The notes under the pieces: generated by a model
Database searches by the model: none
What the model saw: only the letters and a program-made list of their open reading frames with translations
What the model was told of the DNA's origin: nothing
IMG/VR virus record: IMGVR_UViG_3300043446_003193
Coordinates: 145,444 to 209,443 of that record
Source: a virus
Strand: one strand, 5' to 3'
Length of the DNA: 64,000 nucleotides
Position numbers and translations under genes: made by a program
Shown here: positions 4,015-58,649 of the stretch, one piece after another
How positions within the stretch are numbered: the stretch's first letter is position 1
Layout: the number at the start of each line of letters is the position of its first letter

Positions 4015-5640
4015 TTATAAAGTGTTTAAACCGTTTACGATAATCTTACCGTAGAATTCTGGTCTAACGATCTTCTTAGCGTAACGAGTCATAACTCCTC
4101 TTCTTGGAGTGAAGTTAGTTGGATCGTACACTAAAGGAGTCATAATCAATGGAACATATGGAGCGTATACAGCACCTGTCTCAAAGAAGTTAGAACCTTT
4201 AAATCCTAATAAGATAACGTTCTCAGTCATGTATGGGTTTTTGTAAACATCATATCTGTTAGAGATAGAACCGATGTTAGTTACACCTGCAGCAAATTGT
4301 AAAGCATCTTTACCAGGATTTGCAGAGAAACCGTTCATTGATTCCAAAATAGTTGCAACGTTTGGAGATACTACTACGAAGTTAGCACCACCTCTCATTG
4401 TTAACTGATGGATTTTGTTAGATACCTTTTGTAATTTGATACCTAAAGTTTGATACCAAGTACTCTTAGTGTATGCAGAAGCAGCTGCTGCGTTAGAATC
4501 TACCGCGAATGCTCCAGTTGCACTATTGTAATCGTATCCAACTCTTGCATCCCAATAATCAGTTGTGAATGCGTTTTGTTGTAACATTTCTAAGATTTCC
4601 AAATCAATTTCTAAAGAAATGTACTCAGATAACATTTGAGTTAACTCAGCTTCAGCGTCTACACTATGGTAAGCATTTAAGTCTTGAGCTAATTCAGGAG
4701 TCCAAATTGCTTTCAACTTACGAGTCTTAGCAACGATTGGTTCTGATTTCAATTCTAATTCAATTTCTGGAATGTCTAAGTTTGAACCTTTATCTTCAAA
4801 GTCACCTCTGTTTTCAGCAGATGGTTGCTTATGATAAGATAATGTAGCACCACCAGCACTTACACCACCTGCAGATCCTGTACCGTAGAATTCTACTGAA
4901 GTACCATTGATCTTAGTGTATTTAGGATAGTAGTTGTTAGCTGTGATAGAACCAGATTGTAAGATTTCAAATGCTCTTACACCGTTCCAATCAGCATCAG
5001 TTGGTAAAGTTACAGTTACTTTTTTGATACCACCAGCTGCTAAAGAAGCAGATAAGTCAGCGTCAAAATTGATATCAGCCCAAGATGCAGTTGCAACTGT
5101 TGCGTCTAACGCTGCTGATGTATCGTTGATTGTATAACCAAATCTTCCAGCTCCGTAAAGACCACCTTCAGCAACTTGAGTAGAACCCAATTTGTTACCG
5201 TGAGATGCTTCAGAGTTGTAAGTTAAGTTATCCTTACCGAAAGTACCACCTTTACCGAATAATGAATTACCGTTAAAGTCTGGGTTACCAGCTTGTGAAG
5301 TACCATATTTGAAGTCCATGTAGAAAATAAGACCTGAAGGTAAGTTCATAGGTTGTACTGAAACGAATTCTTTAGCTGCGATAGAACCGAAGATTCTTCT
5401 TACTAAAGGTAACGCAACACCAGCCCATTCTTCAGAACCTGCTGAAGTACCTGTTCTTGTAGCCTCATCCAATAATTGCTTAGCTTGGTTTTCTAACATT
5501 ACTGCCATACCATGCTTAGTAGTTTCTGAACCTACTCCTTCAAGTAAGCCAGTTTTTTCCCATTTGCTTTTCAAACCTCTAGTTTGCTCAAGCATTACGC
5601 TCTGTGGGTTAGCGCCTGTCATTAATTTTTTTAAGTCCAT
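4015..5640 (-). CDS. gp23: Major capsid protein, gp23-like
   Basis: 541 residues, close to T4 gp23 (521). The clearest family block is VRRIFGSIAAKEFVSVQPMN followed by LPSGLIFYMDFKYG (about residues 80-114), matching the gp23 start of the mature HK97-like fold. An L-D-E/A site at residues 57-60 sits where T4 gp23 is cut by the gp21 protease, so the first 59 residues are probably removed on maturation. The gene follows the core protein and protease genes as in T4 and is followed by its own terminator, fitting very high late expression. The leader (GTACATACAATG) has no SD sequence. Confidence 0.95.
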   Translation of the reverse strand: MDLKKLMTGANPQSVMLEQTRGLKSKWEKTGLLEGVGSETTKHGMAVMLENQAKQLLDEATRTGTSAGSEEWAGVALPLVRRIFGSIAAKEFVSVQPMNLPSGLIFYMDFKYGTSQAGNPDFNGNSLFGKGGTFGKDNLTYNSEASHGNKLGSTQVAEGGLYGAGRFGYTINDTSAALDATVATASWADINFDADLSASLAAGGIKKVTVTLPTDADWNGVRAFEILQSGSITANNYYPKYTKINGTSVEFYGTGSAGGVSAGGATLSYHKQPSAENRGDFEDKGSNLDIPEIELELKSEPIVAKTRKLKAIWTPELAQDLNAYHSVDAEAELTQMLSEYISLEIDLEILEMLQQNAFTTDYWDARVGYDYNSATGAFAVDSNAAAASAYTKSTWYQTLGIKLQKVSNKIHQLTMRGGANFVVVSPNVATILESMNGFSANPGKDALQFAAGVTNIGSISNRYDVYKNPYMTENVILLGFKGSNFFETGAVYAPYVPLIMTPLVYDPTNFTPRRGVMTRYAKKIVRPEFYGKIIVNGLNTL

Positions 5641-5663: not shown

Positions 5664-6881
5664 TTATTTAATAATACCTGCTAATTTCTTAAATCTGTCA
5701 GAAAAATCAGCTGATTCAGCAATTACTTGCTTAGCTGCTGCTGGCTTAGTAGATTTTACTGCTTTGCTAGCGATTCCTTCAGAAATAGATTTTTTAGTAG
5801 ATTTGTTAGATGAAGAATATTTGAAATTCTCTGCTAATGTAGAGTAAACCAATTTAACTTCTCTAACTGATTTTGTTCTATCCAAAGTTTCAATCACTTT
5901 AACTTTTTGTTCGTTAGTCATGTTGTGTGCTCTGAATAATTTGTTAGCGAATAACAACTTAGCGTTCAATAAGTTCACTTCGTTGATTGTTTTTTGTAAA
6001 GACTTGATAGTTTTGTAAGCTTCGTTAAGTTCTTTTTCTTTTTCTTCTTCTTCAGCTTCGTCAACTTTCTCTTTATCGTCTTTCATATCCGCTTCCATTT
6101 CACGTAAGATTTCTTCTAAATCAACAACGTCTTTGTCATCTTCTTTAGATTCTTCTTCGTTGGTTACAACCACTTTAGGGTCTTCACCTTTGTCTGTACC
6201 TGCTTCAGAACCATCTGCTAAATTTTCGTTTTTAGCTTCTTCATCTTCTTCAGCTTCGTACATAGGTTTTTCTTCTTCTTCAGAATCTTCACCTTCTAAT
6301 TGAGCTTCTAATTCTCTGATGATAGCTTCTAAGTCCATGTCATCTTCTGTTTCTTCTTCTTCAGAACCAGTTACGTCATAGTCTTCACCATCTTCTTCTC
6401 CTGTCTCATCCGCACCCGCAGTAAATGCTGGTAATTCTTCTTCAGAATCTTCTCCTTCTAATTCTGCTAATCTAGCTTTTAATTGAGCGATTTCGTCTTG
6501 TTTTGCAACTTCGTCATCACCAGCTTGATCATCAGCGAAAGGATTTTCTTCTTCAGAGATATCTGCTACCTTTTTGAAATCATCAACTTGTGCACCTGGT
6601 TCGCCAGATGTTGTTTCAGTTGAACCTGCTTCAAATTCAGTATCAGCGTCTAATGTAGGATTAGATGTAGATGCACCAATGTTTGATGAATCTAATTCTT
6701 CGTCAACTTTTTCAGCTTCTTTATCTTCAGCTTCAGCTTCTGCTCTTAACTTTGCAGATAAGATAGATTGAAGTCTTGGAGTGAAAGCCTCTTCAAGTGC
6801 GATTTTTGCGTTTGCTAAAGCAGTTTCTTTTACAGCTTTGGCATCAGCGATTGCTTCTTTCAATAATTTTGAATTTGCCAT
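5664..6881 (-). CDS. gp22: Prohead core/scaffold protein, gp22-like
   Basis: 405 residues, extremely acidic: residues about 45-270 are dominated by runs of Glu and Asp (repeated EDSEEE-type segments), followed by a coiled coil and a Lys/Ser-rich C-terminus. This is the make-up of a T4-like prohead core protein that is degraded inside the head before DNA packaging. Candidate protease sites of the L/I-x-E type are seen near the N-terminus (LLKE/A) and C-terminus (VIAE/S). It sits directly upstream of the capsid gene as gp22 does. The start has a clear SD-like AAGGA six bases before ATG, rare in this window. Identity is inferred from composition and position. Confidence 0.85.
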   Translation of the reverse strand: MANSKLLKEAIADAKAVKETALANAKIALEEAFTPRLQSILSAKLRAEAEAEDKEAEKVDEELDSSNIGASTSNPTLDADTEFEAGSTETTSGEPGAQVDDFKKVADISEEENPFADDQAGDDEVAKQDEIAQLKARLAELEGEDSEEELPAFTAGADETGEEDGEDYDVTGSEEEETEDDMDLEAIIRELEAQLEGEDSEEEEKPMYEAEEDEEAKNENLADGSEAGTDKGEDPKVVVTNEEESKEDDKDVVDLEEILREMEADMKDDKEKVDEAEEEEKEKELNEAYKTIKSLQKTINEVNLLNAKLLFANKLFRAHNMTNEQKVKVIETLDRTKSVREVKLVYSTLAENFKYSSSNKSTKKSISEGIASKAVKSTKPAAAKQVIAESADFSDRFKKLAGIIK

Positions 6882-7920: not shown

Positions 7921-8349
7921 TTATTTACAAGTTTTACATTCGTTAATTCCCAGTCTTTGTTTCATCACATCTTCAGAAATATCTGCTATTTCAAAATATC
8001 TTCCTAATACATGTCCCATATCTTCATAAAGAGCCTCTAATCTTTGTTGTTGTGCTCTAGCTTCTACTGCTTCCTTTTCAAATGAAGTTTGTAACTTTTT
8101 AAGTTCATTCATATTTCTCTTAATAGTTACTCTATCAAACCAATCTCCACCTTCTCTTAAAGTATATTCTTGTGCTGCATCTGCAATACCACCCAATGTT
8201 TCTGCAATTTGCATAATATCAGATTTTCTACTCATACCTTCTCTATGTTGGTTATATGTAGAAATTATTTCTAAGAAGTGTTTTTTTAATTCAGAAGGCA
8301 ATTGTTCTAATTGTTCTTCTTCTTTCAATAAATCTTTTAACTTTATCAT
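7921..8349 (-). CDS. Conserved T4-like prohead-operon protein (142 aa)
   Basis: Helical protein starting MIKLKDLLKEEEQLEQLP, an amphipathic head with an L-K-E/E site resembling T4 capsid-targeting peptides. The body has GGIADAAQEYTLREGGDWFD, TIKRNMNELKKL and LYEDMGHVLGRYFEI, which I recognise as a conserved but unnamed family near the prohead protease in marine T4-like phages. It ends with a CKTCK pair of cysteines. It overlaps the upstream 92-residue gene by four bases (ATGA). Probably a head core or internal protein. Confidence 0.7.
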   Translation of the reverse strand: MIKLKDLLKEEEQLEQLPSELKKHFLEIISTYNQHREGMSRKSDIMQIAETLGGIADAAQEYTLREGGDWFDRVTIKRNMNELKKLQTSFEKEAVEARAQQQRLEALYEDMGHVLGRYFEIADISEDVMKQRLGINECKTCK

Positions 8350-8625: not shown

Positions 8626-9216
8626 TTAGTTTAATTCAATTATGATTTCTCTCATTAAATCCTGTGATTTACACCACTTACCACATTCTTCTGCCATCTG
8701 TTTCCATTGTTTAGATTCGTTCATTGGTGCCATAAATGCTCCATGTGTAGATGGATTAGAAACAAAATCCCAACCTACTAATTCAAAATCTTCTTGAACC
8801 ATTACAGTTCCATCTCTTAATTCTTTAACAGACCCTAAACCTCTTGATGAAATACCTAAACGAATATTATTCTTTAATAATTCTTTTAATATGTTACCAG
8901 ATGGAGTTGAAAGTATTTCTACTACACCACATACATCATCACCTTCCCAAAAAATTTCTCTAATATTGTGAGATACATTTTTTAAGTTAATTACTGGAGA
9001 ATCCGGATGGTCTAATTCACCCAACGCTCTTCTTTCTTTAATGAGTTGTTCGTATTTTTTACACTCTCTTTCCAATATTTCACGTGGATATCTTCTACCA
9101 TTTTGGTTTGCAGCCCCAGCTCTTTGAAGAATGCCCTTAACTAAATAAGTACCATTTTCTTCTTGTTGAAGTTTTGCTTCAAATAAGTGTGTTTCTATTA
9201 ATAGTCCTTTGTTCAT
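8626..9216 (-). CDS. gp21: Prohead core protease, gp21-like
   Basis: 196 residues, near T4 gp21 size. Visible family signs are RAGAANQNGRRYPREIL near residue 35, a catalytic-type histidine in GELDHPDSP (about residue 70) and the serine block GISSRGLGSV (about residue 120), followed by VGWDFVSNPS. The enzyme cleaves core and capsid proteins after L/I-x-E sites before packaging. Its own N-terminus has two such sites (LLIE/T and LFE/A), consistent with self-processing. The start overlaps the stop of the EF-hand gene by one base. Confidence 0.93.
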   Translation of the reverse strand: MNKGLLIETHLFEAKLQQEENGTYLVKGILQRAGAANQNGRRYPREILERECKKYEQLIKERRALGELDHPDSPVINLKNVSHNIREIFWEGDDVCGVVEILSTPSGNILKELLKNNIRLGISSRGLGSVKELRDGTVMVQEDFELVGWDFVSNPSTHGAFMAPMNESKQWKQMAEECGKWCKSQDLMREIIIELN

Positions 9217-11282: not shown

Positions 11283-13031
11283 TTACTCTTTTGTTAAATC
11301 TTCTGTCAAAATCTTCTTTTTGTTACCATTCATATCTTTGAAAACTTCTAAATATGAATTTTTTGGAACATATTTTTTAACAGAACCTTCTTTCGCTTTA
11401 AGAGTTTTTATTCCTAATGGGTCTCTACCTTCTGGATGGTCATCCTTACCATATCTAACTGGGTCTTTAGGTCTACCAACCCCATCTTCCTCTAATTCTG
11501 CTTTTAATTTATTTAATTCTTCTTCAACATTTGTAGGGCCTTCGGTTCCAGTTTCTTTTGCTGGATCTACACCCTGTGTTTCAATTGATGTTAAACGGAA
11601 TGTTTGTTTAGTATCTTCTAATATTGAAAGTGTTTGCTCATCTTGTTCATCTTTAGCCATTCCCATTATAGCTTGATACATCCATTCTTTAGAGAACATT
11701 TTTGTTTGTTGCATTTGTTGAATTAATGCAACTTTAGATGTATACAACTCTACTTTCTCTTGCTCATAAATTTTAGATGGAATAGTTAATTCCAATGTAA
11801 AGTTTGTTAAACGGTCATCATCAATACCTTGTGCGTATAAGTGGATGATTGCAATTTTGGTTAATTCAGAAACCATAACTCTTTGTATTCTCTCAATGGT
11901 TTTTGCAAATCTAACATCCATCGCTGCAAGAGTTGCTTTACCATTTGTATCTTCTTCATATCCTAAATATGCTTTTGGAATTTGAAGTGCTGCCATCAAT
12001 TTATTTTTAAGATAATTGATGTCTTCAATCATATTGTATTCCAACCCTTTTAGAGTATCAATTGAAGTACCATTATCATTACCTCTTACTGGCATATAAT
12101 AATCTTCAATCAAATTCTGTATATTGTATTTTAAATTATATTCACCCGTTCTTTCATCAACAAATGGAACTTTTTTAGATGCATTTATAATTTTTTGCAT
12201 GTAGTTATCTACCTCATTTGGTGGAATATTACCTACATCAATTTTAAAGATTCGTTTTTCAGGTGCTCTCATTACTCTATGAATCAACATAGCATCTTCC
12301 ATCAACATCAATTGTTTCCAAACTCTTCTTGCACCTTCTAACATTGATTTACCATATGGAAGGAAGTTGGAATCGTTATTTAAACGGAAGTGAGCAACTT
12401 CATAATTTTCAAATTCTTTTTTAGGAGTTTGTCCATAAGAACCCAATGGGTTTTGATATGGAGCGTATACAAATTTAACTCTTTGTGGATTTTGTTGGTC
12501 AAACCCTTCAACTCTACTAACTTCATATGAAGAAAGTGGCATAACATTTACAATACCAATTCCTTCTTCTGCTGCGATTTCTAATTGTAAATATAAATCA
12601 CCATATTTTACTAAATTTCTTGTCCATGGCCATAAGTTAAATTCAACATTTAAAATATCGTAGAAAAGATTTTCTAATATTTGTTTTACATTATCATCTT
12701 CGTGATGAATTTTTAAAACATTACCCATTTCATTTCTAGCAGTACACTCATCTGCATATGTATTTAATGCTGATGATAGTATTGGGTCTGTATCCATTGA
12801 ATCGTAATCTCTGAACAAGTCAATTCTAACTTGTTGATATGCCATTGATGATTCAATGTTACCAGTTCCATAATTTGTAACCTTTAATTTCATAAAGCGG
12901 TCAACAAGATTAGTGGTCATATTTTGCCACTCATCTGTATCAATTACTTTAACTCCCTTTTCGGTTTTACGAACTATGGTGTTTGTTGAAAATAATTTTT
13001 GTAACCTGCCTAATACTGATTTATCTGCCAT
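11283..13031 (-). CDS. gp20: Portal protein, gp20-like
   Basis: 582 residues, T4 gp20 class (about 524). Family features are the DPILSSALNTYADECTARNE segment near residue 80, NLVKYGDLYLQLE, HFRLNNDSNFLPYGKSMLEG, and a long stem/wing region with NGTSIDTLKGLEYNMIEDIN and LQIPKAYLGYEEDTNGKAT. Twelve copies form the DNA channel at the head vertex and bind terminase and neck. The C-terminus is charged and probably disordered. It has a host-type promoter-like site (13053-13083) directly upstream, unlike most structural genes. The leader AAAACAAAATG lacks an SD sequence. Confidence 0.95.
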   Translation of the reverse strand: MADKSVLGRLQKLFSTNTIVRKTEKGVKVIDTDEWQNMTTNLVDRFMKLKVTNYGTGNIESSMAYQQVRIDLFRDYDSMDTDPILSSALNTYADECTARNEMGNVLKIHHEDDNVKQILENLFYDILNVEFNLWPWTRNLVKYGDLYLQLEIAAEEGIGIVNVMPLSSYEVSRVEGFDQQNPQRVKFVYAPYQNPLGSYGQTPKKEFENYEVAHFRLNNDSNFLPYGKSMLEGARRVWKQLMLMEDAMLIHRVMRAPEKRIFKIDVGNIPPNEVDNYMQKIINASKKVPFVDERTGEYNLKYNIQNLIEDYYMPVRGNDNGTSIDTLKGLEYNMIEDINYLKNKLMAALQIPKAYLGYEEDTNGKATLAAMDVRFAKTIERIQRVMVSELTKIAIIHLYAQGIDDDRLTNFTLELTIPSKIYEQEKVELYTSKVALIQQMQQTKMFSKEWMYQAIMGMAKDEQDEQTLSILEDTKQTFRLTSIETQGVDPAKETGTEGPTNVEEELNKLKAELEEDGVGRPKDPVRYGKDDHPEGRDPLGIKTLKAKEGSVKKYVPKNSYLEVFKDMNGNKKKILTEDLTKE

Positions 13032-14174: not shown

Positions 14175-15782
14175 TTATCCAATTAACCAGGTTAAATTTT
14201 CTGTTCCTTTTTTTCCTAAATCCATTTCATATGGATTTTGTTTTAAATGGTTAGTGGATATTAATCCTTCATATTTGTTTATTTGTGTTGCACCTAACAT
14301 ACTTTTAGTTAAGTCAATACCTTCTTGTTTTAAACGAAGTGCTGTATTTCTAACCCAAAGTCCAATTGCCATAGCCATTGTCAAGTCATCATTATAACCC
14401 TTCATAGCTTCTGCTCTTCCAGCTTGCCAAATAAATGTAAATAATTCATCTATCAATCTACCAGAACGAATAAGGATATCTTTATCGTTTATGTAGGTAT
14501 CTAATGTTGAAATAATAAGAGGACGAGTTTTTGATGTAGTAGAGAATCCTGCAACCATTTTCTTTTCATCTCTATAAAATTTACTACTCATTTGTTTTTC
14601 TACATCAATATATTTTAAATCAACACTCATATAAAATAGATTTCCGTATCCTCTATCTATACATTGTTGAATTGTAGACCATCCTACGTTTGAGTTTTCT
14701 ACTACTAGTAATGCGTTGTTCCATTCGGTTGCAACGGCTACTAAAAAGTTTCCAAAGTCTTTTGTTTCAATTTTACCTCTATATTCTGCAACTTGAGAAC
14801 TATCCTCAATATCAATAACCTGAAAAGTAGAATAATCCGAACCATCTCCTCTCGCTACGTCGGCCACTACCATATATTGTCTATTATAATTTGGATGTTC
14901 CCATTTCCAATAGTTACCATCAAACCCAGTTTTTTCTATCGGGTCCATCACATATGTATCTTTATACCACATCAATAATTGAGGATCTATTACAGTGTCA
15001 CCAGAAGATACGAAGTCACAGTCACATTCTTGTGCTGCACCTTTAACTCCTAAGATTCTTGTTTGTTCATCTCTCCACGCTTGATTTCTTTCAGGGTGTA
15101 CAGTCCAATGTAGATTAATACAATTAAACCCGTTTGAACCATTTTCTCCTTCAACCCACATTTTATGGAACCAGTTACCCACACCATTAGGAGTAGATAA
15201 TACAATAGCAGCACCACCCGTTGAAAGTGTTGACTGTGCTGATAACCAAATTTCATCAATATCTCTAATGAATGCGGCCTCATCCACAACTAATAGGGAT
15301 AGGGCTTCCGAACGTCCTGCATCAGGAGAACTTGCAATTGCTTTTACTTGAGAACCATTTTTTAATTTAAGAGAAAGTTTGTTATCTTCAGCTGCTGCGG
15401 TTGAACCATCTCTTAACCAAACAGGAAGAAGGTCATGCATTACTCTAACCTTTTCAACAAGGTTTTTGGCTACCGTAACTTTTGTTGCAATAACCAATGC
15501 ATTAAAATCTTGATTAAATAACATTTTCCAAAGAATGTATCCTGCAGAAAGTGTTGAAAGACCTAACTGACGGGATTTAAGAATAATGTTAAAACGATTA
15601 TCTTTAAAATCTGTTAAACATCCCTCCTGGAAAGGATAAAGGTGAAAGGGTATTTTTCCTCTCACCGGGTGCTGAATTACACAATATTTTTTCATAAAGT
15701 AAATGGGGTCTCCCGCACACTTACGATATTCTTCAGCGATTATCTCTTTCAGGCTCTTCTTTGGTTGAGCTTGAGCTTGCAT
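14175..15782 (-). CDS. gp17: Terminase large subunit, gp17-like
   Basis: 535 residues. N-terminal ATPase: Walker A-like KSRQLGLST (residues 69-77), Walker B SLLVVDEAAF (about 162-171) and a coupling STPNGVGNWFHKM motif. C-terminal RNase H-like nuclease: VVADVARGDGSDYS (acidic pair near residue 305) and a late acidic NDDLTMAMAIGLW. The enzyme pumps DNA into the prohead and cuts concatemers. A small terminase subunit is not recognised beside it. The start overlaps the stop of the 215-residue gene by one base. No intein interrupts the ATPase motifs. Confidence 0.97.
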   Translation of the reverse strand: MQAQAQPKKSLKEIIAEEYRKCAGDPIYFMKKYCVIQHPVRGKIPFHLYPFQEGCLTDFKDNRFNIILKSRQLGLSTLSAGYILWKMLFNQDFNALVIATKVTVAKNLVEKVRVMHDLLPVWLRDGSTAAAEDNKLSLKLKNGSQVKAIASSPDAGRSEALSLLVVDEAAFIRDIDEIWLSAQSTLSTGGAAIVLSTPNGVGNWFHKMWVEGENGSNGFNCINLHWTVHPERNQAWRDEQTRILGVKGAAQECDCDFVSSGDTVIDPQLLMWYKDTYVMDPIEKTGFDGNYWKWEHPNYNRQYMVVADVARGDGSDYSTFQVIDIEDSSQVAEYRGKIETKDFGNFLVAVATEWNNALLVVENSNVGWSTIQQCIDRGYGNLFYMSVDLKYIDVEKQMSSKFYRDEKKMVAGFSTTSKTRPLIISTLDTYINDKDILIRSGRLIDELFTFIWQAGRAEAMKGYNDDLTMAMAIGLWVRNTALRLKQEGIDLTKSMLGATQINKYEGLISTNHLKQNPYEMDLGKKGTENLTWLIG

Positions 15783-17138: not shown

Positions 17139-20100
17139 TTATTCATAAAAAATACCAAGTATCTGATTTAATGGTGCGAATGTACCTGTAAGTTTATATG
17201 TTTTTCCATTATAAAAGAATACCAGTCCTTCATTTGCCACTATTCTTTCAATTCCACCCAATCTATTCAATCTACTCAATTCTTGTTTTAATTTTTGAAT
17301 TTGTGCAGGATTGCCAGAAGTTTTAACTTGATCGGCAACTGTTTTTAATCGTGATTTCATTGAACGAATTGCCTTATCAGGATGAACCGTCAATACACTA
17401 CCAACAAATTCTAAAACATCTGCACCTACTCCTAAAAATATTTCTTCAAATGGTTTGATATTATCTTTTTGTTGTTTTGCAACATTTACTTTATCATTAT
17501 TCATTGCCCAGTCTTGTAACTTAGGATTTGATATTGTATTTAATCTAAAAGATTTATCACCAAATGCCCATCTTCTAATTAAAGCTTCTTTTGTAAGTTT
17601 ATCAACTTTAACAGGTGCGTTTGATGTAATCCACCAATCCCACCAACTTTGATGATAATCTGCTACATTATCTGAATCTTTTAATCCAAATTCGGATTGT
17701 AATTTTGAAATCTTAGAAAGATATTTTGATTGTTTAGAACTTAAATCTTCTGATTTTGGAATTTCAGTTATTGGTGGTCCTTGAATTGTGTATTTAGATT
17801 GAACATCTGCATTTACTTGCTTAATCATACCTGCTAATACACTCTCTGCTCCATCCACCTTACCAACAGCGTTTCCTTTTTCATCATATTCTATACAATT
17901 GTGAAATACTAAAAGTGCTTGTCCGTAAGGAATAACATTTACCGAAGTTGGCCAAATTACTTCAATATTCATAAATTTGGTTCCTTCACCAAATACTTTT
18001 TCTCTTTGTTTTTGAGATAATGCAGATACTGCTGCTGAAAGGTCTTTCATTGCGTAATTATATGCATCTGTTAAACCACCTCTTCCGCCAAATTTTGATG
18101 CAACATCTTCAATGCCCATTGCACTTGCTCCACCATTTGATAAATGTCCTTTATTTCTAGCTGCAATTAATCTACCATTTTTCCAGCTGATTGCTAACGC
18201 CTGTCCATCGGTTTTTTCTCTTACTACACCTAAATCCCCATTAAGTGCTTTTGTAACGATATCTTTAAGGTGTCCAAATGTCAAATCCATATCATCAAAT
18301 GGATGACTCATATGACCATATGCCCCACCTTCCATTAATAGACCTTCTTTTAAAAATTCAGTTGGTTTTTCATCAAATCTAGGTAGGTTTCTTGCAGAAT
18401 ATTTTACAGTATATTGGGTTTCATCTTCATCACCCCATATTGCATCTGCTATTGGAAAATCCATCTGCGTATATCCACCACTATAATACCAATCATCTCC
18501 TTTATTTACACCATCGTCTGCGTCTAATTTTCTAGTATGTCCTTTTGGTAAATAAGCACCATCGGCTTGAGAATCTGCATCAGCTAATCCACTTATTTCA
18601 TTTATATACATTTCAATATCTTCGTATAATTTTGAAATTTGTTCGTCAAAGTTAGGTTTGATGTTTAATTCTTTTTCCATTTTAGTTATCTCATCATATC
18701 CCATATTTCTCAATGATCTTGCAACATCATTTGCTTTATATCCGTTTGGATTTCCGAATAAGTATGCATTTATTCTTTTTCTGAATGTTGAATTTTTATA
18801 TGCATCAATTAAATTTTTAAAATGAACATCATTGGAACCCATTTCATCTATTTTACGAAATGTAGTTGCCTGTCTTCCATTTATTGTTGGCATTCCATGA
18901 TCATCCTTTCCAATATCTTTAACTTGTACCTTTTTATTTTTAAACTTACCCATTAAAATAGTATCACCCGTATCAACATCTACATTAACATCTTCTTTGT
19001 TAATTTCAATTGCTGCCAGTTGCTTTTTAGCAGATGCTAACGAATCATGAGTTCCTAATCTATCTCCACCATTTTTTGGATATACAACATATTTGTCACC
19101 AACTTTTTTTATGGTTTCGTTTACATTTTCATTGTAGATTTGTTTGTTGATTCTACCATATTCTCTCATTAGAATTCCTGCAACTGCATGTGCTTGGTTT
19201 TCTATTGGAGAACCATCTGCACCATCTTTTTCTAAATTTCTAACTAACCCCAATTCATCTTGCTTTCTATGAACCATTTCATGTGCAAGAGTTCTTAGGA
19301 TATCTGCTGTTAATCTACCTTCGGTTGCAACATATATGGATTTATCTTCAGGATTATATCCACCTAAACTTGTTTTTACTTCTGCGAATTCTCTTCCACC
19401 AACTAATGTAACATTTGGTGTTTCTTTTAATTTTAATCTTTTAGTTGCAAATTCTACAAAATGTTGAATAGATTGTTGTTTTGTTTCTGATAAATTTTCA
19501 TTTAAAGAAAACTTACTAATCATTTTTTTATTATTCCAACTATCTGCTATTTTTTCCGCAATTTCAGGAGTAATATCCATATTTTCTATTCTTTCTGCAA
19601 TTGCGGCTGCAAATATATTTAGTGCACTTGCTTCATCAATATCTTCGGCAAAAATAGCAGCTTTTCCTACACCAGTTGCAACTACTTCTGTTACAGCATG
19701 TGGTATCAATTCCATAGCCGTATGTTTTACCAACCCAGCAGCACCATGTGCCAATCCGCCACCAACTGCTGCAAATAATGCTGTTGTAGCTATTTTAATA
19801 CCAACGGATTTTAAAGCTTTTTTCTGCTTATCATCTAATTTACCACCAGCCATTAAAGTTTTTACACTACTACCAGCTGTTTTAAATGTATCATATTCAT
19901 GCTTCAAACCATGCATAATTGCATGTCCAGCACCTTTTGCTTTGTCCATTATAGCCTGACCCCAACTTCTTCTCTCATCGTGTCCTTCTTTTTTATTTAA
20001 TAACTTAGAAAAAGTTTGTTTTTCTTCTTTACTCCAATTTTTTACTTTTTCTTGTATTCTTTTTACTTGACCTTCTTTTGTATTTCCTGATTTTTCTTTT

Positions 20101-21224
20101 TGTGCATTTTTTTCAGCATCAGATTTTAATTCTACACCAGATAATTTTTGTTCTGGAGGCGGACCTTGTTGGGTATCAGAATCGGTTCCTATTGGAGAAG
20201 TTTTTTCTTTATCTATTTTTCCTTGAGTGGTTTGTCCTTGTTTTGTTGGTTGTCCAGGCTCAGATGGTTTAGCTGCTTGAGTTGCTGCTTTTCCAGGTTC
20301 TTCTTTTTTCTTTGGTTGATTAGCAGGAGCATCGGCTGGCCCAGCTATTTTAGCAGCTTGAATATGTGCAGGATGCTCTTTAGGTAATCGTAATGCATCT
20401 CTTGCTTTAATTTTCTTTTGTTGTCCTTTTGAATTTGTATATGTTATATCAACGTCTAATGCAGGATTTTCAGCTTCTCCAAAATATTGATTTGTAAATT
20501 CTTCAAACATTTCATTGGTAATGTAGTTTTGAATTATTTCAGAAATAGGATCATATACATAATCATCGTCTGTTGTAGCTACTGCTCTAATTTCTTTATT
20601 CTTTTTTTCAATAGCCTCTACATCTTCTTTTGAAGGGTATCCTCTATATAATTCTTCGTTAAGTTTGGTTGTTATCATTTTGAATATTTCTCTATCAAAT
20701 TTTGGATATGCTTTTAAGAAAAACTTTTTAGCTTTTTCTTTATCATTACTTCCCAATCCTTTTCTAACTTGAGTTCCACTAATTGGATTTGGTTCTGGAG
20801 GGATAGGATATGTATAACCAATTTCATCATAACCATATCCAGATTTTCCGTTATATGGTTTGAAATATTTACCTTGTAACCTTGTTGCATCTTTTTCACC
20901 AACTGCTGCAATATAAGCAGTAGTTTTTCCATCAAACTTTCCAAGTATTTCTACCGGTCTATATGGGTTAGAAACTTTAACAAATTTTGAAGCAGGAACT
21001 CCAAACATTGTAGTTGCTATTTCTTTTTTTTCTTTAAAAGTAAATGGTGATTTATCTGAAGATGTATCATTAGAACTTGCTATATAGACATTTGCTTCTC
21101 CAAACTGAGAAACTAATCTTTGATACGCATCATAATGTCCTCTGTGAAATGGTTGAAAACGACCACCGTATATTACGATAGTTTTTTTAACCTCTGGTTT
21201 ATTCACTTCTTTTATTAAATTCAT
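17139..21224 (-). CDS. Giant three-domain protein: HxGH nucleotidyltransferase, HExxH peptidase-like, KxDG ligase-like
   Basis: 1361 residues. Residues 1-190 are a cytidylyltransferase-type fold: GGRFQPFHRGH (HxGH at 27-30) and ISGTQVRK (148-155). A Lys/Gln/Pro-rich linker (about 280-430) and a Gly/Ala-rich hydrophobic stretch follow. HEMVH at 648-652 with a following KQDELG looks like a zincin-type metallopeptidase site. The C-terminal 400 residues show nucleotidyltransferase/ligase motifs in order: KTDG (Lys 1004), GRLIAARNKG, FMNIEVIW, NEGLVFF and YKLTG. The head MNLIKEVNK has an I-K-E/V site like prohead-targeting peptides. A late box is four bases from the ATG. Perhaps an internal protein delivered with DNA, as T4 Alt is. 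Domain calls rest on motifs; activity is unproven. Confidence 0.75.
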   Translation of the reverse strand: MNLIKEVNKPEVKKTIVIYGGRFQPFHRGHYDAYQRLVSQFGEANVYIASSNDTSSDKSPFTFKEKKEIATTMFGVPASKFVKVSNPYRPVEILGKFDGKTTAYIAAVGEKDATRLQGKYFKPYNGKSGYGYDEIGYTYPIPPEPNPISGTQVRKGLGSNDKEKAKKFFLKAYPKFDREIFKMITTKLNEELYRGYPSKEDVEAIEKKNKEIRAVATTDDDYVYDPISEIIQNYITNEMFEEFTNQYFGEAENPALDVDITYTNSKGQQKKIKARDALRLPKEHPAHIQAAKIAGPADAPANQPKKKEEPGKAATQAAKPSEPGQPTKQGQTTQGKIDKEKTSPIGTDSDTQQGPPPEQKLSGVELKSDAEKNAQKEKSGNTKEGQVKRIQEKVKNWSKEEKQTFSKLLNKKEGHDERRSWGQAIMDKAKGAGHAIMHGLKHEYDTFKTAGSSVKTLMAGGKLDDKQKKALKSVGIKIATTALFAAVGGGLAHGAAGLVKHTAMELIPHAVTEVVATGVGKAAIFAEDIDEASALNIFAAAIAERIENMDITPEIAEKIADSWNNKKMISKFSLNENLSETKQQSIQHFVEFATKRLKLKETPNVTLVGGREFAEVKTSLGGYNPEDKSIYVATEGRLTADILRTLAHEMVHRKQDELGLVRNLEKDGADGSPIENQAHAVAGILMREYGRINKQIYNENVNETIKKVGDKYVVYPKNGGDRLGTHDSLASAKKQLAAIEINKEDVNVDVDTGDTILMGKFKNKKVQVKDIGKDDHGMPTINGRQATTFRKIDEMGSNDVHFKNLIDAYKNSTFRKRINAYLFGNPNGYKANDVARSLRNMGYDEITKMEKELNIKPNFDEQISKLYEDIEMYINEISGLADADSQADGAYLPKGHTRKLDADDGVNKGDDWYYSGGYTQMDFPIADAIWGDEDETQYTVKYSARNLPRFDEKPTEFLKEGLLMEGGAYGHMSHPFDDMDLTFGHLKDIVTKALNGDLGVVREKTDGQALAISWKNGRLIAARNKGHLSNGGASAMGIEDVASKFGGRGGLTDAYNYAMKDLSAAVSALSQKQREKVFGEGTKFMNIEVIWPTSVNVIPYGQALLVFHNCIEYDEKGNAVGKVDGAESVLAGMIKQVNADVQSKYTIQGPPITEIPKSEDLSSKQSKYLSKISKLQSEFGLKDSDNVADYHQSWWDWWITSNAPVKVDKLTKEALIRRWAFGDKSFRLNTISNPKLQDWAMNNDKVNVAKQQKDNIKPFEEIFLGVGADVLEFVGSVLTVHPDKAIRSMKSRLKTVADQVKTSGNPAQIQKLKQELSRLNRLGGIERIVANEGLVFFYNGKTYKLTGTFAPLNQILGIFYE

Positions 21225-21308: not shown

Positions 21309-22697
21309 TTAAAGTTTTACATTTATCATCCAAGCATTTTCTGCAAATTGTTCTTTTGATACTAATTCGTATTGAACTTGATTTATACCATCTTCCTTAT
21401 AATTTATTTTTCCTTCCTGCATTTCCTTAACAAATCTTCTTTCGTTTTTTGCAGTTGGTTCACCCTTTATCCATTCTCCATTTACAAATCCCTCACTAGG
21501 ATGTGGTAATGCGTAAAATCTTCCATTTCTTCTATATGGTGTATTATTACTACTTACTTTAAATGTTTCATTTGTTATCTCTACATTATGTATCAATAAA
21601 TCAGAAATTACATTATTTTTATCTTTTAAAAAATCAGATATATTTTCAGGTAAAACTACATCATTGTAAATTTTAATATCTGCAATCTTTCCTTTTAAAT
21701 AATTTGCTATAATTGGATTACATTCACTGCATGGATTTTTACCAATTAAAATATCATTATTATATTTTTTTAATTTACCTTCAAATTCATGCGGTTTATA
21801 TTCCAATGTTTCTGTTCTTGTATTTTTAATTAAATTACTATTACAATAAAAATATATTTTATTTTCTTTAGAGTCTACCGAAACTGTTATCCATGTCCAT
21901 TCTCCAAATCCTCTTTTTATCCATGCATAAATTTGATTATCGTTTTGAGAATATAAAGAAGCGGATATTGCTCTAGAATTATTAAATCCTATAAAATAAG
22001 ATTCTTTTTTATCTATACTTAAAATTGGATATTCTACATATCGTTTATCTTTTATACCTATTAACCATTCTTTATATTTTTCAGGCTGATCTTCAATTTT
22101 ACACAAAATAGATAATGTATGTGATTGGGATAATAATTCCGATATACCAGTATCTTTTGGAATCGTTATATAAGAATTCTCTCCATCAAAATTAAAACAA
22201 GGAATATCATTGTATTCAAAAAATAAATTATCTTCTGTTAATCCTTCAAAACGACATCTCCAAAATAGGTCATCATCTTCCATACCCCAATCCCAATATT
22301 CATTAGAGTAACCATTTGTTGCTTCTACCTGTTCTTTATTCATTAATACAACACCACCGAAGTATTGTTCATAGTTTAATCTATATTTGTATTTAGATAC
22401 GGCGGTTGCAATATGTGTTGGAAACTTGTCTGGATATGAATAATCACAACTATCGTTTTCCGGTAACATATCTACATCGTGAAAAGCAACATAATCACAT
22501 CCATCTTCAAATGCATGTTTGGCTGCAATATTTTTCATCGCACCTCTATTGAATAATTTATCATCCGTTTGGTGTACAATATAAAATTGATGTGGAATTC
22601 CTTTTTTGTTTAAAAATTTTGTAAGATGAGGAACTAACATTTTAAGATGATATTCCCTATCTCTATAAGGAACACATATTCCGAGTTTTTTTATCAT
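21309..22697 (-). CDS. Beta-1,4-galactosyltransferase-like enzyme (GT7) with inserted LamG-like domain
   Basis: 462 residues. Residues 1-165 carry the animal-type B4GalT signature: ICVPYRDR, FNRGAMKNIAAKHA, the metal-binding DVDM (74-77), YFGGVVLMNKEQ (112-123) and NGYSNEYWDWGMEDDDLFWR (128-147). Residues about 166-345 are a LamG/concanavalin-like sandwich (YITIPKDTG, WTWITVSVDSKENKIYFY, KGKIADIKIYN). After it the GT7 fold appears to resume: KNERRF and DGINQVQYELV correspond to the C-terminal KNEPNPQRF and DGLNSLTYQV blocks of B4GalT. The sugar-binding-type domain is thus nested in the enzyme. It may decorate fibres or host glycans. It lies in the fibre operon. Confidence 0.8.
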   Translation of the reverse strand: MIKKLGICVPYRDREYHLKMLVPHLTKFLNKKGIPHQFYIVHQTDDKLFNRGAMKNIAAKHAFEDGCDYVAFHDVDMLPENDSCDYSYPDKFPTHIATAVSKYKYRLNYEQYFGGVVLMNKEQVEATNGYSNEYWDWGMEDDDLFWRCRFEGLTEDNLFFEYNDIPCFNFDGENSYITIPKDTGISELLSQSHTLSILCKIEDQPEKYKEWLIGIKDKRYVEYPILSIDKKESYFIGFNNSRAISASLYSQNDNQIYAWIKRGFGEWTWITVSVDSKENKIYFYCNSNLIKNTRTETLEYKPHEFEGKLKKYNNDILIGKNPCSECNPIIANYLKGKIADIKIYNDVVLPENISDFLKDKNNVISDLLIHNVEITNETFKVSSNNTPYRRNGRFYALPHPSEGFVNGEWIKGEPTAKNERRFVKEMQEGKINYKEDGINQVQYELVSKEQFAENAWMINVKL

Positions 22698-23166: not shown

Positions 23167-26100
23167 TTAAGGAGTTATTTTACCACCTGGCCCTAAAACG
23201 TTGTGTACTAATATATTATTTGCAAAGTAAGTATCATTTGTTTCAACATCTAATGAAATAAATTCATCTAATTCATCAACTCTTATTTTTTCTTCAATCA
23301 TTTCCCAGTTACCATCTAAATTATACATCATATCACCAACTATAACGTCTTCTGCTCTTAAAAATTTATATTCATTATCTCTTTTTATAAAAATAGGATG
23401 TTCAAAAGTTATTTTTAATTTATCATTTATTACATAATGATAATGCCAGACTCCACTTGTAACAGATTTTACGGCACTCATAGAATCTACATAATCAAAA
23501 GTATTTGTAGAAAATGTTTTCCATGCATCTTCTTCTTCAGAAAATCCATCAATAGAAATATTTTTTAATAAATCCCCTTCTATCAAATCTTCAACATTTT
23601 TTTCACTACCATCCCACATTAAAATTTTTGTACCTTTTGCTAAACACGTTCCGCCACCTGTACAATCACAACCTGCTCCTGTGTATTTATATATCAAACA
23701 AGAGGAATTTGCTGTTCCAGAACACCCACTTTCAGATACTGCATATATTTCATAATATATTGGGTTATCACATGCAATACTACTTATACTAAAAGCATAT
23801 GATGTACCAAATGAACGAGAACCTTGATTTAATATACTACCTTCCGGTCCATAATCAAATGTACATTTATACCAAACTACATAATAAGTCGCCGCATTTT
23901 GTGCGTTTGCAGTACCTGTTCTGGAAAATGCGTATGTTAAAGTACCACAAGTTGGAGTATCCAATGAAACAGTAGGTGCAGTTATATTTCCAGATGCAGC
24001 TACTGCATTATATGAAATTGCACTATTTGTTGCGGTTGTTGATAATAATGTATCTGATGAATTATATATTTTCGCTCTAAAATACATAGTAGTACCACTT
24101 GTTAGTGATATAAAAGCAGCATAATTAGTATTTGCTGTAATACTTGTAAATGTTTCTGCCGCCGTCCAAGTTGAATTATCCGTACTTTTTTCTATTACCA
24201 ATTTTGTAGCAGTATCAATTTGACCAACCGAATATGTAGCAGTTACTCCACCACATACTACTGATTTAGATACAAATGATAATGTATTTACTACACCTCT
24301 ATTTCTTAATACAATATAATAATCAGTTCCTTGAGAAGTATCTGTTGATGATTTTTGCCCATGTATACGATATGTAGTTGTTACTCCTAAAGTAGCACTA
24401 CTTACAACTCTTGCAGCTAAATAGTAATTACCATTTGTATATGGTAGACTGTTTCCAGAAGTATCACCTGTATTATATAATTGGAAGGTTTTTATATTTA
24501 GCGCACCTTCACCCTGTTGTGGAGATGTATTATCTGCTGTTTCCCAAAGTCCATTATATGTGTTTTGAAACATTCTAAACATACCATATGCGCCGGTTCC
24601 TGGTGCATTTCCGGAATCTACTGATACTGTCATTGTAGTATACGCACCTGGGAAATTACTCCAAGTGTATTTATTATCCATTGATAATACGGTATGTATG
24701 GATGCCAAAGCCTTTGTGTTCGGTTCTAAATTATCAAATGTAATTACAGAAGAATTTGTACTAAATGTACCGCCAGTTCTACCACTCCAGGTATCTAAAT
24801 TTATAATTCTAGTAGGAGTATATGTTGGTCCTTGATATGCGTATATACCATATAGTGTTGCAGGGGTATTTAATGTAAAAGTATAATCTAAATCTTCAAC
24901 TAATTGATTTGCAGTCCAACTAGAATATTTTATTGTACCCCAGTCATCGGTTGCTTTTACTCTCATTTTATATGTACTACCAAAACTCAAACCAGTAAAT
25001 GTAATACCCGATTGTGTTGTAAGAACAGTACCATTAGTATCTGCTATTTGGTATTCAACTGTTATATTATCAGCAGTTAAATCAATAGTTCCATCATTTG
25101 AATCATATGTTAATAATCCTGCATATATACTCATTTCAGTATATCCTTTTGTAAATGCTACACTAGGAGTTCCTGTTATTGATGCTAATCTTTTACCCTT
25201 TACTGTTATTGAAATATCTTTAGACCTTTCACTACCAGCATTAATATATAAAGTCCATGCATTAGTTGTACCGGAGTAAGTATATAAGTTACCCCACCAT
25301 GTATAAGTTACTGTTCCTCTTGATGAAGAACTTAAAGTAGTTTTTGATGTTGTTGCCAACTTTCTACAAAATGTAGTACTGGTATTTGTTCTTATCAAAT
25401 AAGTGCCATTATACGGGTTTGCACCATTAAAACTAAGTGGAGATGCTTGCATTCTATTATTATCTAACCAAACATACCAATATCCACCCTGTGAGTTTGT
25501 CTCAGTTGGACCGTTTGTTGTATATGATGCATCTAATGTAAAATTAACTCCTCTAATAGCATATCCGTCAACAAACCCACTTCCTCCTTTTACCACATCA
25601 ATTGTTCCAGGTTCTCTAGTAACAGTAACTGTTTTATTAGTTAAAGTATGATAATAATATAATCCTGAACTTATTGTATATGTTAAATAAACCGAACCAT
25701 ATCCATCACCAATTGTAGATGAATTACAAATTGCATCATATAAACTAAGTGCAGAAAAAGAAAAAGAAGCTACTGAATCTGGGTCTATTTGTGCATCAGT
25801 TAAACTTTGTCCTCCCGCACTTCCCCCATTTGGATAATATGCATCCAATCTTGCAGATATTTTAGTGAAATTGCCAGATGATCTGGTTACTGAAAAAACA
25901 ACAGACTGAACTTGAGAAAGTGTACCGGAATTTATGTTAGATGTTAAAGAATATCCGTATCCTTGATTTGGATACCCATATACTGTCACACTTGTTTCAT
26001 TAAAATCAGATTGTCTATATGTACCACCAGATGCTTTTACATGATAATACCAAGTTTGATCAGCAGATGGAGCAGTCCAACCATTATGTGCTGTTGTATA

Positions 26101-27963
26101 AGTACCACTATTCAAATCTGCATAAGTTCCTCCAGACCCTACTTTGTATTGAAAGTTATCATAAGTAAATGCAGTTGCTAATGATTTTGTTATACTAATA
26201 GAACCATTTGAATATTCTCTTCCAGTTACCCAACTTGCACCCAATCCAATTTGACTTTGATTTATTTTAAAACGAACACTAAAATTATCAGTTAATACAA
26301 ATCCATTTCCATCTGTAATTGTGGCCGTATGTGTTGATGTTCCATCATTTGCAGATGTCGCAGGATTATTAACAGTTATAGTAATTACTCCAGATGCCGT
26401 TTTTGCTCCTGATGCGGAAACCGTGCTATCGGTTGACGTAGCAGAAACACTTGTAACAGAAAATCCATTATCATTTGAACCATTAATAGTAACCGTTCCT
26501 GTAAAAGTTCTATTAGCTCCTGTTAAAACATAATCTTGATCATCAATTGTTAAAACTCCCTTTTGTGGTATTAATATATCTCCGGTTTCTGTATATCCGG
26601 ATACAAATGTAGAATTGCCATCGCTTCTTCTTGCTCTTACTCTTGCTTTTGCATATTGTGCAGTTGTAGTTTTACCTGCAATAGTTACCGAAGGTGTTAC
26701 ATTTGTACCGGCTGCAACCAAAGAAGTCCATGCTCCATAAGAACCACCACTATCTTTAACAGCATAATCTATATCATAATTTAAAGTAGTTCCACTTACA
26801 GCTGCAGTCAAAGCAGTGACCGTTACACCAAATGATTGTCCAAAAGCAGAATATGCTGCACTAATAGATGGTGAAACCATAGCAACAGTTACATTCGTAG
26901 TTGTATGATTTCTAACACTACTATTACTACTATTTGTAATATTTACTCTAAGAGATTGACTACCTAAAGTATTATAATAAATTGATAAATTTTGAGAAGT
27001 TGATGTAGAAATACTTGCTCCTGTTAATACCCAATTATAAGATATTGCAATAGAATCGGGATTATATAAAACTGTTGAAGTAACAGAATATGCAACAAAA
27101 GGTTCTACACTCGTAGAAGCACCAATTGATACCGCCATTGGTCTTCTAAATGTAGTTGCCGTAGTACTTGCCGTATCAAATGGGTTTGCCGAATCTTTGA
27201 CCACAATAGTATAATCATCATCGGCCGTATTACTTGAATTATTAAAAGTTGCAGTATTTACATCTGCAGAACCATAACCTGCTCCATTAAAATTATAATA
27301 ATACGGAGAAACACCACCTGCAACATTCACAGTAAAATCTACGGAACCGGTAGTATAATTATACGTTCCTGCGCCAGTAAATGATGGAGAAGTTGTAACT
27401 GATGTAATTGTTAAATCAACTGCATTTACAAAAACTGTTTTAGAATCATTTGCTTGTTTATTTGAAGAGTTTATTCTAAGTTCTAATCGTAATGTGTTTG
27501 TAGAATTTGGTACAATATATGTATTACTATTATCAACATAAAAGTCAGAAGCATTAGTTACATTTCCGGTAAGAGTTGCAGGAAATACATTTGTTCCAGT
27601 ATATACACCATTTACCCAGATTTTAATATATGCCGTTTCTCCGGACTGCATACCCGTCACAGTATATGTAAAATCTAATCTTTTACCTGATTGAGCATTT
27701 GTATTAGCAGGACTAGTTAAAGTATTTATTGTAATTGCAGGAACTTTACCTTCAAATTCTACAAACTCATATTGACTTCCAGTAGGCCTTGCTCCAGTAC
27801 TTGGGTTTAATACTCCGACAGTATTTGGTAAATCTCTGACAGTATTTGGGTCAACTGTACCGGTCAAAAATTGATTTGCAACATATGAACCACTTACTGT
27901 CGTAGTTGCAGTGTTAAGACCGGCAGAAGAACCTAAATCTCCAATTCGTATATTACTTGCCAT
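23167..27963 (-). CDS. Large fibre/adhesin ending in Hint (intein-like) autoprocessing domain
   Basis: 1598 residues, Ser/Thr/Gly/Asn-rich, of many Ig-like or fibronectin-like beta modules typical of phage adhesins. Residues 1440-1588 form a Hint domain: CLAKGTKILMWDG (Cys 1440, block A), ITFEHPIFI (TxxH 1519-1522, block B) and SLDVETNDTYFANNILVHN ending in His-Asn 1587-1588. The next residue is Val, not Cys, Ser or Thr, so protein splicing is not expected; N-terminal cleavage, thioester attack or C-terminal Asn cyclisation would be. Only 10 residues follow. The region just before (GAGCDCTGGGT) is Cys/Gly-rich. The gene overlaps the 2031-residue fibre gene by 11 bases. Confidence 0.85.
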   Translation of the reverse strand: MASNIRIGDLGSSAGLNTATTTVSGSYVANQFLTGTVDPNTVRDLPNTVGVLNPSTGARPTGSQYEFVEFEGKVPAITINTLTSPANTNAQSGKRLDFTYTVTGMQSGETAYIKIWVNGVYTGTNVFPATLTGNVTNASDFYVDNSNTYIVPNSTNTLRLELRINSSNKQANDSKTVFVNAVDLTITSVTTSPSFTGAGTYNYTTGSVDFTVNVAGGVSPYYYNFNGAGYGSADVNTATFNNSSNTADDDYTIVVKDSANPFDTASTTATTFRRPMAVSIGASTSVEPFVAYSVTSTVLYNPDSIAISYNWVLTGASISTSTSQNLSIYYNTLGSQSLRVNITNSSNSSVRNHTTTNVTVAMVSPSISAAYSAFGQSFGVTVTALTAAVSGTTLNYDIDYAVKDSGGSYGAWTSLVAAGTNVTPSVTIAGKTTTAQYAKARVRARRSDGNSTFVSGYTETGDILIPQKGVLTIDDQDYVLTGANRTFTGTVTINGSNDNGFSVTSVSATSTDSTVSASGAKTASGVITITVNNPATSANDGTSTHTATITDGNGFVLTDNFSVRFKINQSQIGLGASWVTGREYSNGSISITKSLATAFTYDNFQYKVGSGGTYADLNSGTYTTAHNGWTAPSADQTWYYHVKASGGTYRQSDFNETSVTVYGYPNQGYGYSLTSNINSGTLSQVQSVVFSVTRSSGNFTKISARLDAYYPNGGSAGGQSLTDAQIDPDSVASFSFSALSLYDAICNSSTIGDGYGSVYLTYTISSGLYYYHTLTNKTVTVTREPGTIDVVKGGSGFVDGYAIRGVNFTLDASYTTNGPTETNSQGGYWYVWLDNNRMQASPLSFNGANPYNGTYLIRTNTSTTFCRKLATTSKTTLSSSSRGTVTYTWWGNLYTYSGTTNAWTLYINAGSERSKDISITVKGKRLASITGTPSVAFTKGYTEMSIYAGLLTYDSNDGTIDLTADNITVEYQIADTNGTVLTTQSGITFTGLSFGSTYKMRVKATDDWGTIKYSSWTANQLVEDLDYTFTLNTPATLYGIYAYQGPTYTPTRIINLDTWSGRTGGTFSTNSSVITFDNLEPNTKALASIHTVLSMDNKYTWSNFPGAYTTMTVSVDSGNAPGTGAYGMFRMFQNTYNGLWETADNTSPQQGEGALNIKTFQLYNTGDTSGNSLPYTNGNYYLAARVVSSATLGVTTTYRIHGQKSSTDTSQGTDYYIVLRNRGVVNTLSFVSKSVVCGGVTATYSVGQIDTATKLVIEKSTDNSTWTAAETFTSITANTNYAAFISLTSGTTMYFRAKIYNSSDTLLSTTATNSAISYNAVAASGNITAPTVSLDTPTCGTLTYAFSRTGTANAQNAATYYVVWYKCTFDYGPEGSILNQGSRSFGTSYAFSISSIACDNPIYYEIYAVSESGCSGTANSSCLIYKYTGAGCDCTGGGTCLAKGTKILMWDGSEKNVEDLIEGDLLKNISIDGFSEEEDAWKTFSTNTFDYVDSMSAVKSVTSGVWHYHYVINDKLKITFEHPIFIKRDNEYKFLRAEDVIVGDMMYNLDGNWEMIEEKIRVDELDEFISLDVETNDTYFANNILVHNVLGPGGKITP

Positions 27964-34158: not shown

Positions 34159-34344
34159 ATGAAATACGCAATGTTGCAAATTAAAAAAGAAACCCATGAA
34201 CTTCTCAAATCATATTGTGAAGAACACGGGTTTAAAATGGGTAGTTTAGTTGAAAATCTAATCAAAAAACACGTTGGTGTTTCAAAACCTCAATCAGGTG
34301 TGTTGAAGGCTGATAAAGTTACTGTTAGAAATCAATCTTACTAA
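34159..34344 (+). CDS. Small ribbon-helix-helix-like protein (61 aa)
   Basis: MLQIKKETHELLKSYCEEHG followed by FKMGSLVENLIKKHVG fits the strand-helix-helix layout of small Arc/CopG-type DNA-binding proteins: one polar strand, a helix with LLK..C, then a Gly-Ser turn and a second amphipathic helix. The C-terminus is a short basic tail. It is the only gene on the plus strand. It faces the Mre11-Rad50 gene, and the two coding regions overlap tail to tail by 20 bases. A repressor role is plausible but unproven. Confidence 0.7.
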   Translation: MKYAMLQIKKETHELLKSYCEEHGFKMGSLVENLIKKHVGVSKPQSGVLKADKVTVRNQSY

Positions 34345-58442: not shown

Positions 58443-58649
58443 TTATTTTTTAAGTCCGTATTTTATCCATTTATACCAAAATCTTTCATGTAGAAAGTAA
58501 ATTATTGGTTTTATTATTAATTCACCCAATCCAACCATTCCTGCCCATTTTAAAGGTAGTCCTGCGGTAATTGTAAGAATTATTGTAGTTATAGTTCCAA
58601 TAAATCTATAACTAATACTTTTTGCTATATGTCTTTTAATCAACGGCAT
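58443..58649 (-). CDS. DUF2061-type small membrane protein (68 aa)
   Basis: Two membrane segments (about residues 11-28 and 33-52), with ISYRFIGTITTIILTITAGL and AGMVGLGELIIKPIIYFLHE followed by RFWYKWIKYG. This matches DUF2061, a short family of predicted inner-membrane proteins in bacteria and phages of unknown function. It overlaps the nucleotidyltransferase gene by 14 bases. In some bacteria DUF2061 occurs beside adenylylsulfate enzymes; here it sits with a nucleotidyltransferase. Confidence 0.85.
   Translation of the reverse strand: MPLIKRHIAKSISYRFIGTITTIILTITAGLPLKWAGMVGLGELIIKPIIYFLHERFWYKWIKYGLKK

Follow-up and report, generated by a model that had tools for sequence, protein, structure and literature searches.

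The window analysed here, a stretch of 64,000 nucleotides from the IMG/VR virus record IMGVR_UViG_3300043446_003193 (positions 145,444 to 209,443 of that record), comes from a T4-like phage and encodes on its minus strand a protein of 1361 residues that unites three enzyme-like domains in one chain. The open reading frame (ORF; 17139..21224) has no internal stop, lies exactly where the original prediction had placed it and occurs once in the 209,443-bp record. It stands in a late head operon, upstream of the gene for the terminase large subunit (14175..15782), and farther downstream in the same orientation lie genes for a gp20-type portal (11283-13031), a T4 gp21-type prohead protease of the Peptidase_S77 family (8626..9216; PF03420, E 1.2e-29), which is the candidate processing enzyme, and a Gp23-type major capsid protein (4015..5640), the set by which the phage is recognised as T4-like. 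The protein begins with a short leader like that of T4 Alt, and the leader-type motif, [LI]xE, recurs at most of its internal domain borders, a feature absent from the original prediction. Judged by the sequences of its relatives, this pattern likely marks a packaged polyprotein that is cut into separate enzymes. The reading as a whole, in which a T4-like aquatic phage carries the protein inside its head as polyvalent cargo under an Alt-type leader, to be cut, injected and used to repair RNA, has in our estimation about an even chance of being correct.

The family is widespread, being present in more than 440 viral contigs; relatives are encoded by 444 IMG/VR stretches in the scan, and additional scans brought in marine members of greater divergence. 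No near DNA match to the locus was found among phages. One or more of the three domains occur in 128 complete ORFs. The N-terminal nucleotidyltransferase and the C-terminal domain stand together in 120 of them; in 81 of these 120 the zincin is present as well, and in the other 39 it is not recognisable. The constant parts across relatives are the leader and the C-terminal domain, with the middle modules being shuffled. The terminase is a conserved neighbour, lying downstream and always on the same strand in 228 relatives, and downstream in 176 of the 178 loci whose sequence continues for 3.5 kb or more on that side. Both remaining loci belong to a single jumbo phage, seen twice, in which the C-terminal domain stands alone. 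A single cultured relative, from Microcystis phage Mel-JY01, was seen with both terminal domains. Its product WWT39297 (cytidylyltransferase like protein) is a true homologue (nucleotidyltransferase 40%, C-terminal domain 37%) encoded upstream of terminase, but it is only 639 residues long, lacks the zincin and has HxGH changed to GIHH. Derivation from a host cellular enzyme was considered and rejected, as a scan of 84,980 cellular genomes gave just two loci with relatives, both on contigs from metagenome-assembled genomes and most likely phage sequence.

The N-terminal domain (residues 7-189; 20658..21206) is, by its sequence, a HIGH-superfamily nucleotidyltransferase of the NMN adenylyltransferase (NMNAT) type. 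It has the GxFxPxHxGH and SxTxxR motifs of that superfamily (GRFQPFHRGH, 21-30; ISGTQVR, 148-154), and matches to Pfam CTP_transf_like (PF01467; E 8e-7), to PHROG 395 (phrog_395; E 4e-13), to NMNAT profiles and to NMNATs in the PDB (E 3e-6) bear out the HxGH nucleotidyltransferase predicted at residues 1-190. These matches fall far under equivalog cut-offs, with 28.6 bits against the NCBIfam cut-off of 181 for TIGR01527, the NMN adenylyltransferase equivalog. HxGH is replaced by GPHH or GIHH in a marine clade and in Mel-JY01, the second histidine being kept. A second HIGH-type nucleotidyltransferase-like protein, small (125 residues) and with the motif GRWQTWHAGH, is encoded at 58636-59013.

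The C-terminal domain (residues 966-1361; 17142..18329) has, in order, the motifs of the covalent nucleotidyltransferase superfamily that includes T4 Rnl1: EKTDG (1003-1007), ARNKG (1022-1026), MNIEV (1085-1089), EGLVFF (1332-1337) and YKLTG (1343-1347), corresponding to K-D-G, KG/RNK, E, EG-V and K of motifs I, Ia, III, IV and V. Lys1004 (18213..18215), in the KTDG of motif I, is the predicted AMP acceptor; it is invariant and corresponds by motif to Lys99 in T4 Rnl1. KxDG, RNK and the motif III glutamate are present in all 167 distinct C-terminal domains, which range down to about 35% identity, EGxVF is present in 166 of the 167, and Lys1344 of motif V is invariant in the alignment of relatives. 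A model built with AlphaFold2 (AF2) on 38 sequences (pLDDT 82, pTM 0.78) puts the motifs on strands as in the superfamily: Lys1004 follows the first strand and RNK the next hairpin, Glu1088 lies within the strand of motif III, and the final hairpin holds both EGLVFF and YKL. When the model was compared with the PDB by Foldseek, ranks 1-24 were all RNA or DNA ligases or capping enzymes, with T4 Rnl1 first and thus the best solved-structure match. The weight of this evidence lies in the consistency of the list and in no single match, because the E-values are 0.03 and above and the TM-scores low. In the comparison with viral models, the first matches were relatives with a cytidyltransferase-like annotation, followed by many annotated RNA ligases. 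A nucleotidyltransferase fold in the last 400 residues, which the original prediction had made its critical check, is therefore found in the model, and we hold with high confidence that the domain has it. The domain probably works like a ligase-type covalent nucleotidyltransferase; whether it is a polynucleotide (RNA) ligase we regard as evenly balanced. Rnl1 has a C-terminal helical domain. No such specificity domain follows motif V here, because the chain ends about 17 residues later, and the domain differs further from Rnl1 in an all-helical insert of about 200 residues (1126-1327; 17244..17849) which AF2 places between the strands of motifs IIIa and IV.

Between the two terminal enzymes lies a zincin metallopeptidase domain (residues 577-692; 19149..19496). 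Its HEMVH site was correctly located by the original prediction at 648-652, and HExxH with a downstream glutamate is conserved in 63 of 63 distinct zincin-bearing relatives. The AF2 model (pLDDT 82) has a zincin fold, with the top Foldseek matches being IrrE/PprI, the archaeal minigluzincins abylysin and jannalysin, and CapP (E 0.002-0.16, best 2.4e-3). The zincin is a real but optional module. It is followed by a small module matching phrog_3684 (residues 688-749; 18978..19163; E 1.8e-12). Other modules take part in relatives: marine members have a P-loop kinase (AAA_33/Zeta-toxin, with a weak match to the polynucleotide kinase phrog_505) before the nucleotidyltransferase, and one relative of 1848 residues (L145:1681-7224) has a PolyA_pol/CCA-adding head domain (residues 1039-1248; E 2.9e-29) which, with its RNA-binding part, sits between the zincin and the ligase-like domain. 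The zincin here and the kinase or CCA-adding-type enzyme in relatives thus appear as exchangeable additions to two core enzymes.

The leader, MNLIKE (21207..21224), is a predicted capsid-targeting sequence (CTS) that would be cut after Glu6, and here the original prediction of a protease-cut N-terminus MNLIKE/V gains computational support. T4 Alt loses six residues in the same way, being cut at ITE-6 (PMC5694885), and in T4 ten leader residues suffice for packaging and bring foreign proteins into the head (PMC9026906). [LI]xE occurs within the first 20 residues in 58 of 59 representatives, against a mean of 22 and a maximum of 33 in shuffled sequences. In marine members the leader stays at residue 1 despite some 130-640 residues before the nucleotidyltransferase, and two proteins that have the C-terminal domain unfused to the nucleotidyltransferase possess a leader of their own (FLNE in L152, FLKE in L165). 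The valine at P1' does not disqualify the leader, as the rule in PMC5694885 covers the residues before the cut ([LI]xE). A gp21-family prohead protease in the same phage, one of the marks by which internal head proteins are recognised, is encoded in the head cluster, and an LLDE-A site at residues 56-60 of the capsid protein, kept across the phage family, matches the specificity expected of an S77 protease. The likeness to T4 Alt and the internal proteins IPI-IPIII, whose capsid-targeting sequence is cut by gp21, extends from the kind of leader, with its predicted cut after residue 6 at IxE as in Alt, to the protease and Gp23 capsid in the genome; the protein here differs in being no ADP-ribosyltransferase, in being much longer and in having [LI]xE at internal borders as well. 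All five cyanophage cytidyltransferases considered start with a leader ending in [LI]xE-A or FxE-A, and one of them, the cytidylyltransferase of S-SZBM1, which begins MRFRQFIIE-A, was detected in virions by two peptides (PMC9146016). From all this the multi-enzyme protein is probably packaged in the head. Leader-like N-termini were also noticed on three other products of the head cluster (5664-6881, LLKE-A; 7921-8349, LLKE-E; 8626-9216, LLIE-T), which are probably a core protein, another internal protein and the protease itself.

The same motif marks three junctions within the chain. LNE at residues 188-190 (20655..20663) ends the nucleotidyltransferase, and [LI]xE is present at this border in 53 of 57 representatives (shuffled mean 19). 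A second LNE, at residues 574-576 (19497..19505), precedes the zincin and is matched in 31 of 33 representatives (shuffled mean 10); this site is the weaker evidence, because the reversed-motif control is also high there. LKE-G / LME-G at residues 958-965 (18330..18353) stands just before the C-terminal domain, with [LI]xE in 57 of 59 (shuffled mean 23). Per 100 residues, the motif reaches a density of 6.5-9 in the windows of the leader and these three borders, compared with 0.19 inside the nucleotidyltransferase and 0.32 inside the C-terminal domain. Across 32 aligned full-length relatives, the glutamate at the border (in the leader and at the equivalent of Glu190) is at least 90% conserved and the Glu-Gly-Gly before the C-terminal domain is invariant, although the modules between them differ. 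That the chain is cut between its domains we consider somewhat better than an even proposition.

The strongest alternative is that the protein is packaged, loses its leader and is otherwise left uncut, as a single effector with several domains such as Iyer et al. 2017 describe, with the border motifs being ordinary linker and the zincin, if anything, processing the chain once it has been packaged or injected. Zincins are common in polyvalent proteins, where a part in autoprocessing has been proposed for them, and some of these proteins are packaged unprocessed (PMC5512222); the presence of a zincin in 81 of the 120 ORFs and the missing motif after it fit as well. The conservation of the border glutamates even where the flanking modules differ completely, and the retention of border sites by the 39 relatives without a recognisable zincin, speak against this, and we judge it rather unlikely. 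Cutting by the zincin itself is kept only within this alternative, as the sites persist where no zincin is recognisable.

Under the preferred reading of a cleaved internal head protein, the packaging-signal-like leader and the likely protease sites at most borders together make loading into the head, cutting and injection probable. The leader would bring the protein into the prohead core, where the S77 protease would remove it after Glu6 and probably also cut the [LI]xE sites between the domains. The head would then hold separate mature enzymes, two of which, the NMNAT-like nucleotidyltransferase and the RNA-ligase-like enzyme, would form the core, and these would enter the host with the DNA. 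The computations bear directly on the domains, their motifs, the leader, the spread of the sites and the place in the late head operon; packaging, cleavage, catalysis and RNA repair are inferred from them. Charged with AMP on Lys1004, the ligase-like enzyme would most likely serve to repair RNA, by sealing or in another way, or to process its ends; this would probably be tRNA that host defences had cut, and the work would be done before phage gene expression. RNA repair is favoured by the relatives that have a P-loop kinase or a polymerase of CCA-adding type, as kinase, ligase and CCA-adding enzyme are parts of tRNA repair in jumbo phages (PMC7824862). We put forward such repair at the onset of infection only tentatively. 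More doubtful still is the fuller proposal, in which the head-maturation protease doubles as a polyprotein processor and a single gene with a leader supplies the capsid with an RNA-repair kit of changeable make-up (ligase-like enzyme and nucleotidyltransferase, with a kinase or CCA-adding enzyme in relatives), cut at its borders there and passed through the tail with the DNA as separate enzymes. Phage RNA repair against host anticodon nucleases is known as a function expressed once infection is under way; enzymes already present in the head, if this proposal is true, could work ahead of all phage gene expression. Cutting at the border sites would also suggest that a large multi-domain cargo passes the narrow tail tube as separate small enzymes.

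A number of results weigh against a cleaved, packaged kit for RNA repair. The similarity to ligases is statistically weak (best PDB E 0.034, TM ~0.25). By sequence, the C-terminal domain has no match in Pfam, PHROGs or the PDB, and hhalign of its family with T4 Rnl1 was not significant, so that the tests made put it outside the Rnl1 family. No phosphatase domain for healing 3' ends was seen. Among the borders, the one after the zincin lacks [LI]xE (1 of 33), no more than 5 of 11 have it ahead of an internal nucleotidyltransferase, and P1' is more varied than A/G/S except at the border of the C-terminal domain; the interior of the zincin is undepleted (0.84 per 100 residues), and the border counts overstate independence because the sequences are related and not independent events. 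The virion detection is limited to the N-terminal domain, in a cyanophage relative, and the leaderless DUF6267 is not listed in S-SZBM1 virions (PMC9146016). A distant relative, gp256 of PA5oct, lies among structural genes detected by mass spectrometry and is itself without that label.

It is also conceivable that the two nucleotidyltransferases attack the host or act on nucleotide signals, modifying host proteins or RNA after injection by AMPylation, capping or NAD-linked chemistry, much as T4 Alt does by ADP-ribosylation. The Alt-like leader, the NMNAT-like domain, an IrrE/minigluzincin-type zincin that could cut a host regulator and the Zeta-toxin/AAA_33-type kinase of relatives would all suit this. 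RNA ligases nevertheless rank first for the C-terminal fold, one relative has a CCA-adding-type domain, and no NadV homologue was found in the phage record, which may be incomplete; we consider host attack unlikely. Least probable is a late assembly factor outside the head, whose ligase-like domain would aid assembly in the manner of T4 Rnl1, an annotated RNA ligase that is also listed as a catalyst of tail-fibre attachment, since, for all its position in a late head operon, the leader ends in [LI]xE and a leader-bearing cyanophage nucleotidyltransferase was detected in virions.

With several unrelated enzymatic domains in one late-gene chain and a shuffled architecture, the protein is built like a polyvalent protein. 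It shares with those of Iyer et al. 2017 (PMC5512222) large size, late expression, a zincin, shuffled enzymatic modules and presumed injection. It differs from them in its core pair, a HIGH nucleotidyltransferase and an RNA-ligase-like domain, and in the predicted processing, by the head protease here and by the zincin there; in the passages found there, RNA ligases are named solely as domains not accompanied by 2H domains. Polyvalent proteins (PMC5512222) and CTS-bearing internal proteins (PMC9026906) are already known kinds. In the open-licence papers searched, no report was found of an RNA-ligase-like domain in a polyvalent or CTS-bearing internal protein, or of head-protease sites at module borders.

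The cyanophage cytidyltransferase (phrog_395) resembles the protein here in its leader ending in [LI]xE-A and in its detection in S-SZBM1 virions, and at four cyanophage loci (L331, L332, L333, L339) its gene lies beside one for DUF6267, a Pfam family of unassigned function. DUF6267 has the ligase-type motifs KxDG, GTKS, EG-V and KLV in the same order, but the two cyanophage proteins are encoded by separate genes and DUF6267 lacks a leader. Alignment of the C-terminal family with DUF6267 by hhalign was not significant, and profile comparison of the PA5oct/Phosso family with DUF6267 gave E 0.001-0.002, somewhat better than controls. Kinship of the C-terminal family, DUF6267 and the PA5oct/Phosso family is therefore suggested only. 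Elsewhere in the phage record, which may be incomplete, no RNA_ligase-family match was found; in the searches of the record with PF09511 and PF19782, the control genomes gave no match.

Other genes of the window deserve brief mention. Directly upstream of the multi-enzyme ORF, 21309-22697 encodes a fusion of a Group 7 glycosyltransferase with a domain of concanavalin-like type (Laminin_G_3), and within the head gene cluster 7549-7920 matches phrog_858 (starvation-inducible regulator). The 1598-residue protein of 23167-27963 has, at residues 1449-1588 close to the C-terminus, a weak match of intein/HINT-like type that falls under curated cut-offs. Lastly, the ORF of 1048 residues at 34325-37471 combines Metallophos and SMC/SbcC ATPase domains in an SbcD-SbcC-like fusion.

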